Of a stretch of DNA of 50,392 nucleotides, positions 12,278 through 40,310 are shown piece by piece (position 1 is the stretch's first letter; each line of letters opens with the position of its first letter). Below the pieces are notes generated by a model. It saw only the letters and a list, made by a program, of their open reading frames with translations, had not been told where the DNA came from and did not search any database. The position numbers were made by a program, and so were the translations under genes. The DNA is from Candidatus Sulfotelmatobacter sp. (GTDB lineage Bacteria; Acidobacteriota; Terriglobia; Terriglobales; Acidobacteriaceae): contig JADGNQ010000028.1 in assembly GCA_017883385.1 (NCBI GenBank), positions 1 through 50,392 of the forward strand, in the 5' to 3' direction.

Positions 12278-13444
12278 ATGCATCGCATTTACTTGGACAA
12301 CAATGCCACCACTCCGGTCTTGCCCGAGGTGTTCGAGGCGATGCGCCCGTATTTTGGGGAGCAGTTTGGAAACGCCTCGTCCATTCACCATCACGGGCAG
12401 CAGACCCGGGCCGCGGTGGAGGATGCCCGTGAGTCGGTGGCCGCGTTGCTCGGCTGCCGCGCGTCGGAGATCGTTTTCACGAGCGGCGGCACTGAGGCCG
12501 ATAACCTCGCCATCTCCGGCCTGGTAGCGGCGGGCGATCACGTGATCACGTCAAGCATCGAGCACCACGCCGTGCTGCATGCCTGCAAGCACCTGGAAGA
12601 GATCGGGTGCGAGGTGACGTACCTTCCGGTGGACGGCCGTAGCCAAGTCGATCCCGACGATGTGCGCCGGGCGCTACGGCCGAATACCAAGTTGATCTCG
12701 GTGATGATGGCAAACAATGAGACCGGAATGTTACAACCGGTCGACGAGGTTGGAAGAATCGCAGCAGAAGCCGGTGTCTGCTTTCACACAGACGCCGTGC
12801 AGGCTGCGGCCAAGACAGCGATTGATGTGAAGCGGATCGGTTGCACTGCGCTCTCCATCTCCGGCCATAAGATTCACGCGCCGCAAGGCGTTGGCGCGCT
12901 CTACGTCAAGAAGGGAACGCAGATCCGGCCGCTGTTTTATGGTGGCCGTCACGAGCGCTCGCGGCGGGCCGGTACAGAGAACGTCCCAGGAATTGTGGGT
13001 CTGGGCAAGGCTGCGCGACTGGCGAAGGATGCGCTCGACCGCGGCGAAGACAAGAAAATGGCCGCAATGCGCGACCGCTTGCAGCAGGGAATCCTCGCCC
13101 AGGTCGAGGAATCGGGCGTGAATGGCGACGGTGCGGCGCGCGTGCCGAATACCACGAACATCCACTTCGACCACATCGACGGCGAAGCAATGGTGATAGC
13201 CCTCGACCTGAAGGGACTGGCGGTGTCCACGGGCGCTGCCTGCTCCTCGGGCGCGAACGAGCCGTCGCATGTACTGGTGGCGATGGGCCTGCGCCCGGAT
13301 CAAGCGCGAGCCAGCATTCGCTTCAGCCTGGGCAAGCAGACGGTCGCAGAAGATATTGAGTTGGCCTTGGCGCTCGTGCCGGAGACGGTGGCGCGTCTCC
13401 GGGAGATTTCGCCGAGGTACAAGAAGCTAGCAGTGAGCAGTTAG
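12278..13444 (+). CDS. Cysteine desulfurase (NifS/IscS class), paired with mnmA
   Basis: This 388-aa PLP enzyme removes sulfur from cysteine as a protein persulfide. YLDNNATTP is the N-terminal signature, SGHKIHAPQG contains the PLP-binding lysine, and GAACSSGANEPSH holds the active-site cysteine in a short class I-like loop. The next gene in the same direction is mnmA, about 145 bp away, so the likely sulfur acceptor is MnmA and the product s2U34 in tRNA, as in the YrvO-MnmA pair of Bacillus. No iscU or other Fe-S scaffold gene is adjacent. A second cysteine desulfurase occurs at 18432-19637. TAGAAT around 12257 could be a -10 element. Confidence 0.92.
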   Translation: MHRIYLDNNATTPVLPEVFEAMRPYFGEQFGNASSIHHHGQQTRAAVEDARESVAALLGCRASEIVFTSGGTEADNLAISGLVAAGDHVITSSIEHHAVLHACKHLEEIGCEVTYLPVDGRSQVDPDDVRRALRPNTKLISVMMANNETGMLQPVDEVGRIAAEAGVCFHTDAVQAAAKTAIDVKRIGCTALSISGHKIHAPQGVGALYVKKGTQIRPLFYGGRHERSRRAGTENVPGIVGLGKAARLAKDALDRGEDKKMAAMRDRLQQGILAQVEESGVNGDGAARVPNTTNIHFDHIDGEAMVIALDLKGLAVSTGAACSSGANEPSHVLVAMGLRPDQARASIRFSLGKQTVAEDIELALALVPETVARLREISPRYKKLAVSS

Positions 13445-13464
13445 CGGTCAGTCAGATTACGGTG

Positions 13465-13557
13465 TCGTCCTGAGCGGCGCATTCTGCCGCGAAGACCCAT
13501 GCATTTTGCCGGCGCCGGCAAACCTCATAGGTTCTTCGCTTTGCTCAGAATGACAAG
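13465..13557. repeat. Intergenic repeat with TTCGCTTTGCTCAGAATGAC core
   Basis: The spacer before mnmA starts with GTGTCGTCCTGAGCGGCGC and ends with TTCGCTTTGCTCAGAATGAC, the same core as at 2731-2756. The two ends look like partly complementary arms of one hairpin-forming element with TGCCGGCGCCGGCA in between, itself a perfect 14-bp palindrome (13506-13519). Confidence 0.7.
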
Positions 13558-13589
13558 CACACGGATATTCAGAAGCCAGGAGCCAGACC

Positions 13590-14699
13590 CTGAGTACGAA
13601 CACTATTGCGGTAGCCATGTCGGGCGGTGTGGATTCCTCCACCGTCGCGGCCATGCTGCGTGCCGAGGGACACACCGTCATCGGCCTGACCATGCAACTC
13701 TGGAACCAGCGGCGCATGGCCGGGCGCGAGGGCATGCCCGAGTCGGTTCAGGGACGCTGCTGCTCGCTCGACGACGTCTACGACGCCCGCCGTGTGGCCC
13801 AGCAGATCGGCATCCCCTACTACGTGGTCAATCACGAGGAGCGCTTTGAGCGTGACGTGGTGCGCCCGTTTGTCGAGGAGTATCTCTCCGGGCGTACGCC
13901 GATCCCTTGCAGCCTCTGCAACAATCACCTGAAGTTTGATCAGTTACTGATTGTCGCCCAGCAGATCGGCGCCGACTGCGTCGCCACGGGACACTATGCC
14001 CGCGTGGCCTATGACGAAGCGCGAGGCCGCTGGCTGCTCAAGCGTCCTGCTGACCTCAGCAAGGATCAGACGTACTTTCTCTTTGGGCTGACCCAGGAGC
14101 AGCTGAGTCGCACGATCTTCCCGCTTGGCGACATGACTAAGCCCGAAGTCCGCGAACTTGCCCGCCAGCATGGGCTCGCGCTGGCAGAGAAGCCCGACTC
14201 GCAGGAGATTTGCTTCGTCCCCGGTGGCGACTACAAGCGCTTCATCGATGCCTACCTAGCCGAGCAGGGCGAGGCGTTGCCCGACACCGCGGGCGATCTT
14301 GTAACCACGAGCGGCGAAGTGATCGGCGAGCACAGCGGCATTCACAACTTCACCGTCGGCCAGCGCAAGGGACTCGGCGTGGCCACAGGATCGCCGCTCT
14401 ACGTCATCCAGATCAGCGGCGCTAACAAGCAGGTTGTCGTGGGCGACGCCGAGAATCTTTATTCGCGCACTCTGCGCGCGCGCCGCGTGAACCTGATCTC
14501 GATCGACGACCTGCACGAGCCGATGCGCGTGGCCGTGAAGATTCGCCATCGCCACGAGCCCGCCGCTGCCCTGATCGAAAGAACCGCCAGCGACGAGATC
14601 CTCGTCACCTTCGACGAGCCTCAGCGCGCCATCACCCCGGGCCAGGCCGCAGTCTTCTACGATAGCAACATCGTCGTCGGTGGCGGCTGGATCGCATAG
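13590..14699 (+). CDS. mnmA: tRNA-specific 2-thiouridylase MnmA, probable CTG start
   Basis: MnmA adenylates U34 of tRNA-Lys, -Glu and -Gln and replaces oxygen with sulfur from a cysteine desulfurase. The PP-loop SGGVDSS, the catalytic cysteine in PIPCSLCNNHLKF and the second in QEICFVPGGDY are all present, and FTVGQRKGLG is the C-terminal signature. The first ATG (13617) would begin one residue before the PP-loop and delete the strand leading into it. Nine more codons in frame (from CTG at 13590, reading STNTIAVAM) restore a normal N-terminus, and AGGAG sits at 13578-13582, seven bases upstream. A CTG start is therefore preferred, giving 369 aa. It follows a cysteine desulfurase gene in the same direction. 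Confidence 0.93.
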   Translation: MSTNTIAVAMSGGVDSSTVAAMLRAEGHTVIGLTMQLWNQRRMAGREGMPESVQGRCCSLDDVYDARRVAQQIGIPYYVVNHEERFERDVVRPFVEEYLSGRTPIPCSLCNNHLKFDQLLIVAQQIGADCVATGHYARVAYDEARGRWLLKRPADLSKDQTYFLFGLTQEQLSRTIFPLGDMTKPEVRELARQHGLALAEKPDSQEICFVPGGDYKRFIDAYLAEQGEALPDTAGDLVTTSGEVIGEHSGIHNFTVGQRKGLGVATGSPLYVIQISGANKQVVVGDAENLYSRTLRARRVNLISIDDLHEPMRVAVKIRHRHEPAAALIERTASDEILVTFDEPQRAITPGQAAVFYDSNIVVGGGWIA

Positions 14700-18159: not shown

Positions 18160-18188
18160 TTGACATCATCTCCCGATCGCCCTATCGT
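18160..18188 (+). promoter_or_regulatory. Sigma-70-type promoter for the riboswitch leader
   Basis: TTGACA (18160-18165) and TATCGT (18183-18188) are separated by exactly 17 bp. Transcription would start near 18195, about 30 nt before the riboswitch P1 stem. Confidence 0.7.
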
Positions 18189-18223
18189 AGTCGCATTCAG
18201 GCTTTCGAGCTTGAGTTAACTGT

Positions 18224-18340
18224 AGTCTCATGCAGAGTGGCTGAGGGTAACGGGCCCGTAGAAGCCACGACAACCGGATCAGGAACCAGCCTGATCATAT
18301 GGTGTCAATTCCCGCCCGGTTTGCGGGGGACATGAGATCT
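18224..18340 (+). promoter_or_regulatory. SAM-I-type (S-box) riboswitch aptamer
   Basis: The RNA has the S-box layout. P1 is TCTCATG (18226-18232) with CATGAGA (18331-18337). P2 is GTGGC/GCCAC (18237-18241/18264-18268) around GAGGG and GGCCCGTAGAAGCC. The conserved CAACC is at 18271-18275, P3 is GATCAGG/CCTGATC (18277-18283/18290-18296), the core GGTGTCAATTCC is at 18301-18312, and P4 is CCCGC/GCGGG. GGGGAC (18326-18331) can instead pair with GTCCCC (18358-18363) in the terminator stem, giving a plausible antiterminator. High S-adenosylmethionine should therefore switch off the downstream cysteine desulfurase. A SAM-I/IV variant is possible. Confidence 0.9.
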
Positions 18341-18351
18341 CGGTGAGCAAC

Positions 18352-18391
18352 TGCCTCGTCCCCATATCCCGGATGAGGCATTCGTGTTTTT
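18352..18391 (+). terminator. Riboswitch expression-platform terminator
   Basis: TGCCTCGTCC (18352-18361) pairs with GGATGAGGCA (18371-18380) over ten base pairs with one G-U, followed by TTCGTGTTTTT. It lies 15 nt after the aptamer P1 stem and 41 bp before the cysteine desulfurase start. Confidence 0.88.
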
Positions 18392-18431
18392 AGGGCGCGC
18401 AGGGCCCAGCGCAGCCAACTGGAGAAGCATC

Positions 18432-19637
18432 ATGCAATCGCGAATCTACTTTGATCATTCCGCCACCACGCCGCTCGATCCTCGGGTGCTCGCGGCGATG
18501 GGGCCTTTTCTTGGCGGAGCGTTTGGAAATCCGTCGAGCCTGCATTATGAGGGCCGCTTGGCCCGCGAGGCAGTCGAGACCGCGCGCGCGCAAGTGGCAG
18601 CGCTCATCGGCGCCGAGCCGGACGAAATCATTTTTACCGCCAGCGGCACCGAAGCCGACAACCTGGCGTTGATCGGCGCAGTGCGCGCCAGCGGCAAGCC
18701 CGGTCATGTGGTAACCAGTGCCATCGAGCACGCTGCGATCCTCGAGACCTGCCGCTTCCTCGCCGCGTCGGGTACGAAGATCACGCATCTCCCGGTTGAT
18801 GGCGACGGGATTGTTGGTCCGGAGGGCCTGCTGCGTGCGCTGCAGTCGAACGCGACCGTCGTCTCCATCATGGCGGCGAGCAACGTGGTGGGTACGCTGC
18901 AGCCGATCGAGGAACTCGCTCATCTCACGAAACTACACGGTGTGTTATTTCACACGGATGCGGTTCAGGCCGCTGGCAAGATTCCGCTCGACGTGAATTG
19001 CTTGAACGTCGATCTGCTCTCTCTGTCGGCGCACAAGCTGCACGGGCCGAAAGGCATCGGAGCGCTTTACGTTCGCAAGGGTGTGTGCTTGTCGCCCATC
19101 GTTTTTGGAGGCGGGCAGGAACGCGGACTGCGCTCGGCCACAGAAAATGTCGCAGGCATTGTCGGCTTCGGGGCCGCAGCGGCCATCGCAGGAGAAGAGC
19201 TAGCAAGCGAAGCAGCGCGCCTCGCGGGATTCCGCGAGCTCATCGCGGCTGAACTCACCCGGACGCTGCCTAATTCGTATCTCTTCGGGCATCCATCGAA
19301 ACGCTTGCCCGGCCACCTGAGCTTCGGATTCCGCGGCCAGGAGAGGGAAGTCGGCAAACTCCTGCTCGCGCTCGATCGTGCCGGCGTTGCCGTGTCCGCG
19401 GGCAGCGCATGTAGCGCTCATCATTCCGGAGAGCCATCGGGTGTGCTCCTCGCCATGGGATATGATTCGGAGCGCGCTCGGGGTCTGCTGCGCGTCAGTC
19501 TGGGCCGCTTCAATACGCAGCAGGAGGTTGATCGCTTTTTGGAGATACTGCCTCGGGCCGTCGCTGCATTGAATGGAGGCGCAAGGCAGAGTCTGCCATT
19601 GCAGTCGGTTGAGGTGTCCGCAGTGGCACCGGCGTAG
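18432..19637 (+). CDS. Cysteine desulfurase (NifS/IscS class) under riboswitch control
   Basis: This 401-aa PLP enzyme begins IYFDHSATTPLDP, has the PLP lysine in SLSAHKLHGPKG and the catalytic cysteine in SAGSACSAHHSGEPS. It is the second cysteine desulfurase in the window and differs clearly from that at 12278-13444 in the cysteine loop and C-terminus. GGAGAA lies five bases before the ATG at 18432. No Fe-S scaffold or tRNA-thiolation gene adjoins it; it is alone between its riboswitch leader and a bidirectional terminator. Control by an SAM riboswitch suggests a role in sulfur supply linked to methionine or SAM, for example providing sulfur when SAM is scarce. That is inference. Confidence 0.92.
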   Translation: MQSRIYFDHSATTPLDPRVLAAMGPFLGGAFGNPSSLHYEGRLAREAVETARAQVAALIGAEPDEIIFTASGTEADNLALIGAVRASGKPGHVVTSAIEHAAILETCRFLAASGTKITHLPVDGDGIVGPEGLLRALQSNATVVSIMAASNVVGTLQPIEELAHLTKLHGVLFHTDAVQAAGKIPLDVNCLNVDLLSLSAHKLHGPKGIGALYVRKGVCLSPIVFGGGQERGLRSATENVAGIVGFGAAAAIAGEELASEAARLAGFRELIAAELTRTLPNSYLFGHPSKRLPGHLSFGFRGQEREVGKLLLALDRAGVAVSAGSACSAHHSGEPSGVLLAMGYDSERARGLLRVSLGRFNTQQEVDRFLEILPRAVAALNGGARQSLPLQSVEVSAVAPA

Positions 19638-19695: not shown

Positions 19696-19726
19696 GGCCG
19701 GTCTTGTTAGACCGGCCCTTGTTTTA
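19696..19726. terminator. Bidirectional terminator between cysteine desulfurase and aceA
   Basis: GGCCGGTC-TTGTTA-GACCGGCC (19696-19717) forms a perfect 8-bp stem flanked by TTGTTTT on the plus side and, read leftward, TTTGTTCTTTG. It separates the convergent genes ending at 19637 and 19752. Confidence 0.88.
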
Positions 19727-19751: not shown

Positions 19752-21260
19752 TTAGTCCCCAGACGGCAACAACATCTCCTCCGGCCCCAGGTCGATTGTG
19801 ACCGGCATGTGCGGACAGTCGCCGAGAATGGGCTGACAACCCGCGTCGGGGCCGCGTTCCGGCCGCACCCGCGGTTTCTTCCCCATGAACTGTTCCGCTT
19901 CGGTTGAACCGGCCAACGCCGTGGTCGACGTGAGACCGCCGCTGATTACCTGCTGCACCTGGTCAAAGTATCCCGTGCCTACGAAGCGCTGGTGCTTCAC
20001 CGCCTCATAGCCGTATTGTGTTTCGCGGCTGAATTCCTTTTCTTGCAGACGCGAATAGGCGGTCATGCCCGCCAGCTTATATCCGCGCGCAAGCTCGAAC
20101 ATGCTGAGGTTCAGCGCGTGGAAGCCGGCCAGCGTCACGAACTGGAACTTGTATCCCATGCGTGCCAGTTCCGGCTGGAAGCGTGCGATCGTCGCTTCGT
20201 CCAGATTCTTGCGCCAGTTGAAGCTGGGCGAACAGTTGTAGGCGAGCGCTTTTCCCGGATACTGCGCATGAATCGCGTCGGCAAAGCGCCGTGCCTCTTC
20301 CAAGTCCGGATGCGAAGTCTCGCACCAGATCAGGTCGGCGTAAGGCGCGTAAGCCAGGCCGCGCGCGATAGCCGACTCGATGCCGCCGTTGATTCGAAAG
20401 AAGCCTTCCGGCGTGCGCTCGCCCGTGCAGAAGGCGCGGTCGCGCGCGTCAATGTCGCTGGTCAGCAGGTGAGCGCTGTCCGCGTCGGTGCGCGCCATGA
20501 TCAGTGTCGGCACCCCCATGACGTCCGCCGCGAGTCGTGCTGCCACGAGTTTCTGGATTGCCTCGGTCGTGGAAACCAAGACCTTGCCGCCAAGGTGGCC
20601 ACACTTCTTGGCCGAGGAAAGCTGATCTTCGAAGTGAACGCAGGCCGCGCCCGCCTCGATCATGCCTTTCATCAATTCGAAGGCATTCAGCGTGCCGCCG
20701 AATCCTGCCTCGGCATCTGCAACGAGTGGCGCGAACCATGTCTGCCCCGGAGCTACTTTGCCCTCCGCGTGATGAACCTGATCCGCACGCAACAACGCAT
20801 TGTTGATACGCCGGCAAAGATTCGGAACGCTGTCGGCCGGATACAGGCTCTGGTCGGGATACATCGTGCCCGCGTTATTGGCGTCGGCCGCAACCTGCCA
20901 TCCGCTGACATAGATTGCCTTCAGCCCCGCCTGCACCTGCTGCACCGCCTGGTTGCCGGTCATAGCACCCAGTGCGTTGATGTAAGGGTCGGTCTGCAGC
21001 AGTTTCCACAGACGCTCGGCGCCCATGCGCGCGAGCGTGTGCTCGATGTGGATCGAGCCGCGCAAACGCAGCACATCTTCGGGAGTGTAGGGACGCTCAA
21101 CCCCCTGCCAGCGCGGATTGGCCGCCCAATCATGGTTCATTGCGGCCTGGGCAAGAGCATATTGCGCGACGCGTTCCTGCTCGCTCAACGGGTGCTCGAT
21201 CTGGCGCTGGGGAGTTGAGGGTTGCTTGCTGTGTCCGTTTCCGTTGGCCGACATGTACAT
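19752..21260 (-). CDS. aceA: Isocitrate lyase with C-terminal tail
   Basis: Isocitrate lyase splits isocitrate into succinate and glyoxylate in the glyoxylate shunt. The catalytic loop [11 protein letters not shown] holds the active-site cysteine, and substrate motifs [28 protein letters not shown] and [10 protein letters not shown] are all present. The protein is 502 aa. The E. coli enzyme ends soon after the TALTGSTE..QF motif; here [13 protein letters not shown] is followed by about 43 further residues with a C-x-C pair ([13 protein letters not shown]). It ends the aceB-aceA pair on the minus strand, 40 bp downstream of aceB and with a terminator behind it. An AGGAG stands just before the start at 21260. 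Regulation is probably by the divergent IclR protein. Confidence 0.96.
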
Positions 21261-21299
21261 TTTTCTCCTGAAAGAACTGGTGTAAGGGTGGGTGGCGAC

Positions 21300-22891
21300 T
21301 TAAGCCGGGTTGAATTCTCCGTTTACGATCATGGCTTCACTGATCTCGCGAGCGCGGCGGAAGCGGTCCGCCTCCTCTGGACTTGCATCCGCCGGGAGTT
21401 CGGCCAGCAACCGGTCGAGTTCTTCGTCGAACAGCCGCGTGATGAACTCCGGTGTATGCTTCACCGCCCCGCCCTTCTCGTCCTGTATTTCAACGAGATC
21501 GCGGTGCAACACCCGTTGCGCAATCATCAGGCGGTAGATGCGATCCGTGGCCAGGTCTTCCATGTAGCCGTCGAGCAGGCTGGCTCCTCGGCCGCTGAGC
21601 ACGCCGTGCCGGTAGCGGATGACCGTTCGCACCGCCGCCCGCGTGCCTTTCACCGTTCGTACTCCTACGCCCACCGGCTCTGGCCGCAGGTTTGGATAGC
21701 GGCTCGCCGTCTTGGGCCGCGACTGAAGCTGGTTCGGGCAAGGGAACTGCGCCACAGCAATCGCGTTCTGGTCGGGATGTCCCGTCCATGCGCCATCCAT
21801 CAGACAGTCAGCTTCGTTCTTCTTGTCCTTCTCCAGAATGGCGAGCGCGCGGGTGTTGAGTTCCGCATCTTCGCGGCTTGGATACAGCGCAGTCATGCCG
21901 CCAAGCGCAAGAATTCCGCGGTGGTGACAAATCTCGGGCATCAGCTCGCGCAGGTTCTGGAAGAAAGCAACGTTGTGTGGAAGCGTATTGCGGTCGGGCA
22001 ACACCCAGTCAGGATCGTCGAGATTGAAGTGGATCAGGCTCGCCATGTAGTCCCACCGTCCCAGGTTGAGCCCGATGATGTGGTCGCGCAAGTTGTAGGC
22101 GAACTCTTCCATCTGAAACGCCAGTGGGTGCGATTCCACCAGCGCCATGCATTTGATGTAGTCGCGCGGCAGGCCTCGCCACTGGGCCAGCGCCTGGAAC
22201 AGGTCGCGCCACCAAAGGGCCTCTTCCGCAGACTCCGATTTTGGAGTGTAGATGCAGAGCGGATGCTTGAGTTCGGTAGGGTCGATTTCGAAAAAGATGC
22301 GCGCCACATCGAACAGCGACGCGGAAACCAGCTCGCCTTCAATCAGACCGGCCTGGTTCAAGTGCAATCCGCGCGGGCGCGTAAAGATCACCGTGCTACT
22401 CGGCTGAATCACTACGGTCCGGCTGCGCTTCTTGTCGTAATAGCTGAGCTGGCCGCGGAGGCACGCCAGAATATTGGCCACGCCCGTCTGGTGATGCGAC
22501 CACTCGTTGACGCACGAATCTTCCAGGTCGAGCATGACGCCGGGAGCGCCCGAGTTGAGCATCTTGACGCAGAGTTCGCCGTCATCCGCGGGGCCGGTCA
22601 TCTGGTTGCGCTGGTCCTGGCACCACTCCGGCAGCGTGATCCGCCAGCCGTTGCGCACCGTGTCGGAAGGGAAGCGATGTGCAGGCTTGCTGCCCTCAAG
22701 CGATCTCTGGAGCACCTCAACCCGTTTCAGACCCGTTCCTGCTGGCGCGGAGTGAGCGCCCGGTGCAGCGGGAGCAGGAAGTCCATGAAGCCCGCCGGAA
22801 GATCGCGGGAAGGATCGAACTCAAGCGGCGTGCGGTTGATTGGGTTTACTAGGGTGCCGGCTTCCGGCGTGGATACTGCGGTGGACATCAT
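21300..22891 (-). CDS. aceB: Malate synthase A, interrupted by a frameshift near 22731
   Basis: Malate synthase joins glyoxylate and acetyl-CoA to malate. The main frame (21300-22715) contains family motifs such as LDLEDSCVNEW, FTRPRGLHLN, YTPKSESAEEALWW, HIIGLNLGRWDYMAS, GGMTALYPS, DGAWTGHP and DGYMEDLATD, but lacks a proper N-terminus and start. The missing part is encoded in another frame from an ATG pair at 22888/22891 preceded by GAGGAG: MSTAVSTPEAGT through PAGFMDFLLPLHRALTPRQQ, ending in TGA at 22727-22729. A single missing base in the GGG run at 22732-22734 (minus strand CGGGTCTG) would join the two. It may be a sequencing or assembly error, a real mutation, or less likely recoding. 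It is followed by aceA. Confidence 0.88.
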
Positions 22892-39972: not shown

Positions 39973-40310
39973 CGACTACCCCAGACAACGCTTTCCTGCT
40001 TTGGGATTAGACGCTGTTGAGCTTATAACGGTTATCCAACCCAAGGCAATGCCCGGCAAGTTACTATAGAAGTGGACGTTCATCATGGCCTAACCTGTGT
40101 GAGAATTCTCGGTTGCAGCGACGAACGAAGTCCGAAAGCACAGCCGCGGAGCGGCGCAAGAGTCCAGCCCACAGCGTAAGCTGTGGGTGGGACCGAGGAA
40201 AATCGACAAGCCCCGGGGGCGTAAGAAGCAGTATTCTGTTCTGACCCGGAGTTCACACATCGAAGGGCCAGTAGTCCGGTAACGCACTCATATCAAACGA
40301 GAGGTAATGC
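39973..40310. other. Intergenic region with a multi-part repeat element
   Basis: About 340 bp between divergent genes. From about 40110 to 40235 it holds what looks like a mobile-type intergenic repeat: GCAGCGACGAACGAAGTCCG, CGGAGCGGCGCAAGAG, and a perfect hairpin CCCACAGC-GTAA-GCTGTGGG (40168-40187) with a tetraloop, then CCCCGGGGGCG. No T-run follows. AGAGGTA before 40311 is the likely ribosome-binding site for the next gene. Confidence 0.5.

Follow-up and report, generated by a model that had tools for sequence, protein, structure and literature searches.

The window, that is, the whole stretch of 50,392 nucleotides analysed here, was contig C213 of Candidatus Sulfotelmatobacter sp., whose draft genome measured 6.8 Mb. 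On its forward strand, positions 18432 to 19637 encoded a NifS/IscS-like cysteine desulfurase of 401 amino acids, a PLP enzyme of aminotransferase class V (PF00266, 265.6 bits). The fold family of this protein was not in doubt. The best NCBIfam equivalog was NifS (444.5 against a cut-off of 530.75), and IscS scored 348 against 643.2, so that neither cut-off was reached. Both the PLP lysine motif SAHKLHGPKG and the catalytic cysteine motif SAGSAC were intact in all 14 desulfurases that we found behind the same type of leader. Translation most likely started at the ATG at 18432 rather than at the upstream GTG at 18384, to judge from the sequence. Namely, a GGAG resembling a ribosome-binding site (18421-18424, forward strand) lay 7 nt ahead of this ATG and was shared by all 11 aligned leaders, and the GTG fell between the stem of a terminator and its T run.

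Downstream of the desulfurase, before the convergent next gene, an inverted repeat followed by a T-rich tract (19696-19725, read by eye from the letters) was likely to be a terminator; therefore, the desulfurase unit would be monocistronic here. The convergent frames, at 19752-22715 on the reverse strand, resembled by eye isocitrate lyase and malate synthase of the glyoxylate shunt, and similar neighbours recurred beside the desulfurase in several relatives. Three other genomes (G001, G023 and G035; loci L043, L051 and L052) had a class I methyltransferase-like frame directly 3' of the S-box desulfurase, on the same strand and within about 30 nt or overlapping (assigned by Pfam for L051 only). 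The cysK and cysE genes adjoined the S-box desulfurase in 2 of 14 genomes, on the same strand in L098 and convergently in L215. A second, different IscS/NifS-like desulfurase was encoded in the window at 12278-13444, followed by an MnmA-like frame (tRNA 2-thiouridylase, by eye), the two together spanning 12278-14699. A desulfurase and MnmA are the classic pair for tRNA thiolation. Thus, the S-box desulfurase was a paralogue with its own control. The window also contained an Acido-Lenti-1 RNA, an Rfam sRNA family, at 40142-40187 on the reverse strand (44.4 bits).

The sequence-only reading had proposed a full S-box aptamer ahead of the desulfurase, and the covariance search bore this out. A SAM-I (S-box) riboswitch aptamer with helices P1-P4 was matched on the forward strand at 18225-18338 by RF00162 with 69.3 bits, above the gathering score of 44.4 (E 3.2e-14 in the 50 kb window), and the match covered model positions 1-108 of 108, i.e. 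the full length. The promoter proposed with it, TTGACA and TATCGT separated by 17 nt (18160-18188, forward strand, 10 of 12 matches), proved to be the sole sigma-70-like site on either strand between 18040 and 18440, where shuffled sequences gave a mean of 0.3. Leader counts here and below took in 11 of the 14 desulfurase leaders; in all 11, the TTGA of the first hexamer and the TA of the second were kept. Just 5' of P1, an extra hairpin preceded the aptamer (18195-18216, forward strand, nine pairs and a loop of four). Its sequence differed between genomes and its stem was retained in several of the 11 leaders despite these changes (e.g., TTCCGGC..GCCGGAA and CTCGGGC..GCCTGAG).

The desulfurase aptamers differed from other S-box aptamers in one pair of P3, which we take to lie at the edge of the SAM pocket. 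Of the 11 desulfurase aptamers tested, 7 had A.C and 4 had A-U at this pair; 45 of 48 other aptamers had G-C, the exceptions being L206 (A.C), L054 (broken) and L055 (sub-threshold). Judging from this pattern, the A.C or A-U pair may tune SAM affinity. A chance or misannotated riboswitch was ruled out by the full-length covariance match together with conservation in 14 genomes.

The intrinsic terminator that had been read from the letters was likewise found. It occupied 18352-18391 on the forward strand, with a stem of ten pairs (18352-18361/18371-18380), a nine-nucleotide loop and a T run at 18387-18391, and its core stem had nine of nine pairs in 11 of 11 leaders. A simple terminator scan with a loop limit of 8 skipped the 18352-18380 stem and gave a shorter overlapping one, and the fold was used instead. 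The antiterminator was upheld in a modified form. The pairing suggested earlier, 18326-18331 with 18358-18363, was possible in this genome, but the form kept across relatives (nine of nine pairs in 11 of 11 leaders) combined 18326-18330/18359-18363 with 18333-18336/18355-18358. Position 18358 was G or A across genomes and was paired in both alternative helices. The predicted antiterminator (18326-18363, forward strand) overlapped the 3' strand of P1 and the 5' strand of the terminator, coupling the expression platform to P1. Since it engages the 3' strand of P1 together with the base of P4, it excludes both P1 and the terminator.

Folding energies for this leader were -71.0 kcal/mol with P1 and the terminator and -61.9 kcal/mol in the antiterminator form. 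When the leader was cut at the 5' half of the terminator, the values were -56.3 kcal/mol for P1 and -50.0 kcal/mol for the antiterminator. All 11 full leaders favoured the form with P1 and the terminator; among the 11 cut leaders, L100 alone did not favour P1 over the antiterminator. Because the energies favoured the off form in every full leader, the on form must rely on the order of folding during transcription. The usual logic of S-box riboswitches is to be off with SAM, and SAM-dependent shut-off of the desulfurase gene is predicted from the sequence here. With SAM bound, P1 (18225-18232/18331-18338) would close, the terminator would form and the desulfurase would be off. At low SAM, the 3' strand of P1 and the base of P4 would pair with the 5' half of the terminator and the gene would be read. 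The leader resembled other SAM-I riboswitches in its full P1-P4 aptamer, its terminator platform with a competing antiterminator and its target in sulfur metabolism. It differed from the usual ones in that this target was a cysteine desulfurase, not a gene of methionine or SAM synthesis or transport.

In 14 distinct genomes, which belonged to at least three genera, we found the orthologous desulfurase to have an S-box ahead of it. Nine came from a survey of 61 genomes (this one and 60 relatives), and the others were L098 (G061), L100, G382, G328 and G152. G117 and G062 were counted as one genome because their contig number and spacing agreed, and L097, L099, L102, L105 and L107 were treated as the same records as G007, G017, G016, G030 and G299. 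The survey gave 55 S-box rows, 44 of them before a MetM-like/ThrC-like gene and 9 before the desulfurase; of the other two, L008 lay at a contig end, and L055 was sub-threshold (28.7 bits) with neither gene downstream. Among 398 genomes of the family, 16 matched the desulfurase at E 1e-120 or below, and 13 of these had an S-box directly upstream; with L098 (G061) the total came to 14. The homologues in G016, G030 and G299 were 64-67% identical and had no S-box at the desulfurase (L066, L067 and L214, none at E 0.01); G030 and G299 do have the MetM S-box. An ortholog of 80% identity or more was lacking in 28 of 37 genomes of the genus.

The 13 nearest homologues examined (L101-L113, 59-67% identical) had an S-box at the gathering score in 0 of 13 loci, which ruled out that the S-box extends to homologues at this distance. 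These leaderless genes were often clustered with an ABC-type ATPase, a CobW/HypB-type GTPase and a PF04060 Fe-S protein (e.g., L107:2417-5905 and L102:2362-5875). Of the 13 loci, 9 showed ATPase and/or GTPase frames and 6 showed the Fe-S protein when read by eye, with Pfam assignments for one example each. From its gene content, this looks like an uncharacterised cluster for sulfur or metal-centre assembly in Chloroflexota, Acidobacteriota and Verrucomicrobiota.

In a protein tree of 39 rows (the 14 S-box desulfurases, the 13 near homologues and 12 others), the S-box desulfurases formed one side of a branch with support of 100/97, and the 13 leaderless homologues were adjacent. An earlier tree had taken in 65 of 112 homologues, with 5 duplicate loci left out, and with 40 of the remaining lower-identity rows and the second desulfurase of the window kept. 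The aptamer tree, from which L054 (a run of N) and L055 (28.7 bits) were omitted, separated the 14 desulfurase aptamers from 50 MetM-side aptamers (L008 included) by one change, with support of only 87. A stray leader left by rearrangement was ruled out by the two trees, according to which leader and gene share one origin. Moreover, the leader stayed with the desulfurase in 14 of 14 genomes of the clade, which excluded a one-off rearrangement. The sequence-only reading had suggested a search for the same arrangement in other Acidobacteriota, and this is what the clade provided. It had also named two findings that would count against it, a leader with no covariance match and orthologous desulfurases without the leader; the match lay over the cut-off, and the leader was kept in all 14.

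This genome contained two S-boxes, both over the cut-off. The only other one (C400:315-428) preceded a ThrC-like gene and a ThiS/MoaD-like carrier of the ThiS family, so that the S-box desulfurase and the MetM/MetO-like genes were on different contigs. An S-box before MetM was also present in 13 of the 14 genomes with an S-box desulfurase, G020 having one S-box only. Among the surveyed loci, the carrier followed MetM in 22 of 22 that reached at least about 300 nt beyond MetM; the MetM of L046 and the carriers of L038 and L040 were matched in two pieces, possibly through frame breaks in draft assemblies, and were counted unmended. In 17 of the 22 loci the carrier matched a terminal pattern of GG followed by at most 6 residues, and 0-6 residues were present there (GGAK in G000, this genome); the residues after GG suggested trimming.

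The ThrC-like protein of this module exceeded the TIGR00260 threonine synthase cut-off (261.4 against 167.1) and scored 275.8 with PRK08197, under 303; no MetM model was among its NCBIfam matches. Two further ThrC-like genes of the genome, at 31-32% identity, were found beside thrB (C440) and at C280, and the S-box copy was therefore unlikely to be the sole threonine synthase. Elsewhere, an E1 enzyme with a rhodanese domain adjoined a second carrier (G000:C102:45159-46792), and a JAMM protease adjoined a cysM-like gene (G000:C146:24806-26353). These two loci resembled the mycobacterial CysO/CysM/MoeZ route to cysteine via a thiocarboxylate. The carrier with residues after GG, the JAMM protease and the E1 were also reminiscent of the HcyS/HcyD/HcyF thiocarboxylate route to methionine in Wolinella. 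That route uses MetY and acylated homoserine, whereas a ThrC-like enzyme and homoserine kinase are found here.

The layout of an S-box before a ThrC-like enzyme and an adjacent sulfur-carrier gene is the one reported for Streptomyces albulus. According to the passages on this system in PMC12172450, which deals with a cyanobacterial threonine synthase and cites Hasebe et al. 2024, MetM is a ThrC-like homocysteine synthase with a SAM riboswitch upstream, and metO is named as a gene of the sulfur-carrier family. The likeness to this O-phosphohomoserine route was at the level of layout, and the present case differed in that a desulfurase elsewhere in the genome has its own S-box. The same passages describe a MetM relative from Microcystis that had threonine synthase/deaminase activity and, in the authors' judgement, did not fully serve as MetM (PMC12172450).

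An independent parallel came from the reannotation of Streptomyces lividans TK24. In its riboswitch entries, a SAM-IV riboswitch (RF00634) precedes the cysteine desulfurase SLIV_26975, filed under thiamine metabolism, and an S-box precedes SLIV_16930-SLIV_16925, filed under "threonine biosynthesis" (PMC8079986). These entries link the desulfurase neither to methionine nor to the threonine-labelled genes behind the S-box (PMC8079986). In the light of MetM, and by analogy, this pair reads as the same two targets in another phylum and with another riboswitch class. As far as the entries go, a desulfurase behind a SAM-sensing RNA and a probable MetM-type unit behind an S-box occur in one genome, as here; the differences were the riboswitch class and the phylum, and the two desulfurases were matched at the level of annotation. 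The parallel strengthened our best reading and lowered its novelty.

That reading, which we considered moderately probable, was that a SAM-I leader predicted to terminate at high SAM stands before a predicted desulfurase likely to supply persulfide for homocysteine synthesis via a probable MetM/MetO route. The second S-box module, a ThrC-like enzyme with a ThiS/MoaD-like carrier, has the reported MetM/MetO layout in its sequence. An E1 of the rhodanese type is expected to receive its persulfide from a cysteine desulfurase. Here, the S-box desulfurase would hand persulfide to the E1-like enzyme at its rhodanese domain, and this enzyme would form the thiocarboxylate on the trimmed carrier. MetM would then move the carrier sulfur to O-phosphohomoserine and yield homocysteine. 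As a net result, cysteine sulfur would reach methionine without cystathionine, and only at low SAM. The earlier suggestion that SAM control ties persulfide supply to methionine status was well supported up to the sulfur hand-off, and the hand-off itself is our proposal. The related suggestion of a protein-thiocarboxylate methionine pathway gained support from the MetM/MetO-like pair behind the only other S-box and from what is recorded for S. lividans, with the same hand-off as the proposed step. Co-occurrence was weak evidence for this pathway, because 22 of 30 genus genomes with a MetM S-box lacked a desulfurase of 80% identity or more. MetO must therefore be loadable by another desulfurase, e.g. 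the one at 12278-13444, and the S-box enzyme would be a supplement.

The riboswitch could also be real and the desulfurase serve general sulfur needs, such as Fe-S clusters and thiolated tRNA, that rise at methionine or SAM shortage. We considered this unlikely. General supply is the usual role of NifS/IscS-like enzymes, the carrier, E1 and MetM genes were not seen beside the desulfurase in the stretches read, and a close ortholog was missing from the 28 of 37 genus genomes mentioned above. However, the window already had an IscS/NifS-like desulfurase beside the MnmA-like frame, and it is not evident why a housekeeping Fe-S donor should be under SAM control. Additionally, the only other S-box target of the genome resembled a homocysteine-synthesis module, and the entries for S. 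lividans pair the same two kinds of target.

It was less probable still that sulfide or persulfide from the desulfurase is used by direct sulfhydrylation or by another transsulfuration enzyme instead of the MetO carrier. Two strong PF01053 (Cys/Met-PP) enzymes in the genome spoke for this, and owing to them a cystathionine route may remain. Nevertheless, both were under the O-acetylhomoserine sulfhydrylase cut-off, and no convincing MetX was found: the single match in the genome scored 104.6 bits with the MetX model and 533.1 bits with NF005071 ("hypothetical protein"). Since none of the control genomes reached the MetX cut-off of 500 either, the comparison between models was what counted, and this match was rejected as MetX because it fitted NF005071 far better. 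Finally, the desulfurase might mainly move sulfur for another product whose demand the S-box marks, as the methyltransferase-like frame downstream in G001, G023 and G035, the different cluster around many of the closest homologues and the thiamine heading in the Streptomyces entries (PMC8079986) could suggest, but this was very improbable given that leader and gene had stayed together in all 14 genomes, from at least three genera, and that no methyltransferase lay beside the desulfurase in this window.

In the papers found that join riboswitch or S-box with desulfurase or IscS, the passages seen reported no S-box before a cysteine desulfurase, and one SAM-IV case (PMC8079986). For Clostridium perfringens, the S-box genes named in the relevant passage were metK and metT, with iscS listed apart under iron-sulfur clusters (PMC2940859). 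In Vibrionales, csd is given as a MetJ target (PMC4239095). As far as this entry goes, it is similar at the level of function, as a cysteine desulfurase under methionine control, and it differs in that the regulator there is the protein repressor MetJ, while here it is RNA (PMC4239095). The csd of Streptococcus pneumoniae, described in the passage concerned as acting on cystathionine, was dismissed as a parallel on that ground (PMC5359408). Accordingly, the idea of a SAM riboswitch ahead of a desulfurase is already known, and the novelty here lies in the version with an S-box, in the clade that carries it and in the pairing with MetM/MetO in Acidobacteriota.

A wider form of our preferred reading was possible and somewhat more tentative. 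Namely, a dedicated SAM-gated desulfurase would be the sulfur donor of a cystathionine-free pathway from O-phosphohomoserine via the MetO thiocarboxylate, in which the donor module and the acceptor module each have a SAM riboswitch of their own, and this arrangement would have been reached independently in Acidobacteriota (two S-boxes) and in Streptomyces (SAM-IV and S-box). The S-box desulfurase is thus a direct and testable candidate for the sulfur source of MetM/MetO. If the reading is true, it would account for S-boxes on genes labelled "threonine synthase", which is the only label in the gene listing. Two phyla with a desulfurase and a MetM-type unit under different classes of SAM riboswitch would point to one shared physiological logic, in which persulfide supply is tied to methionine status.
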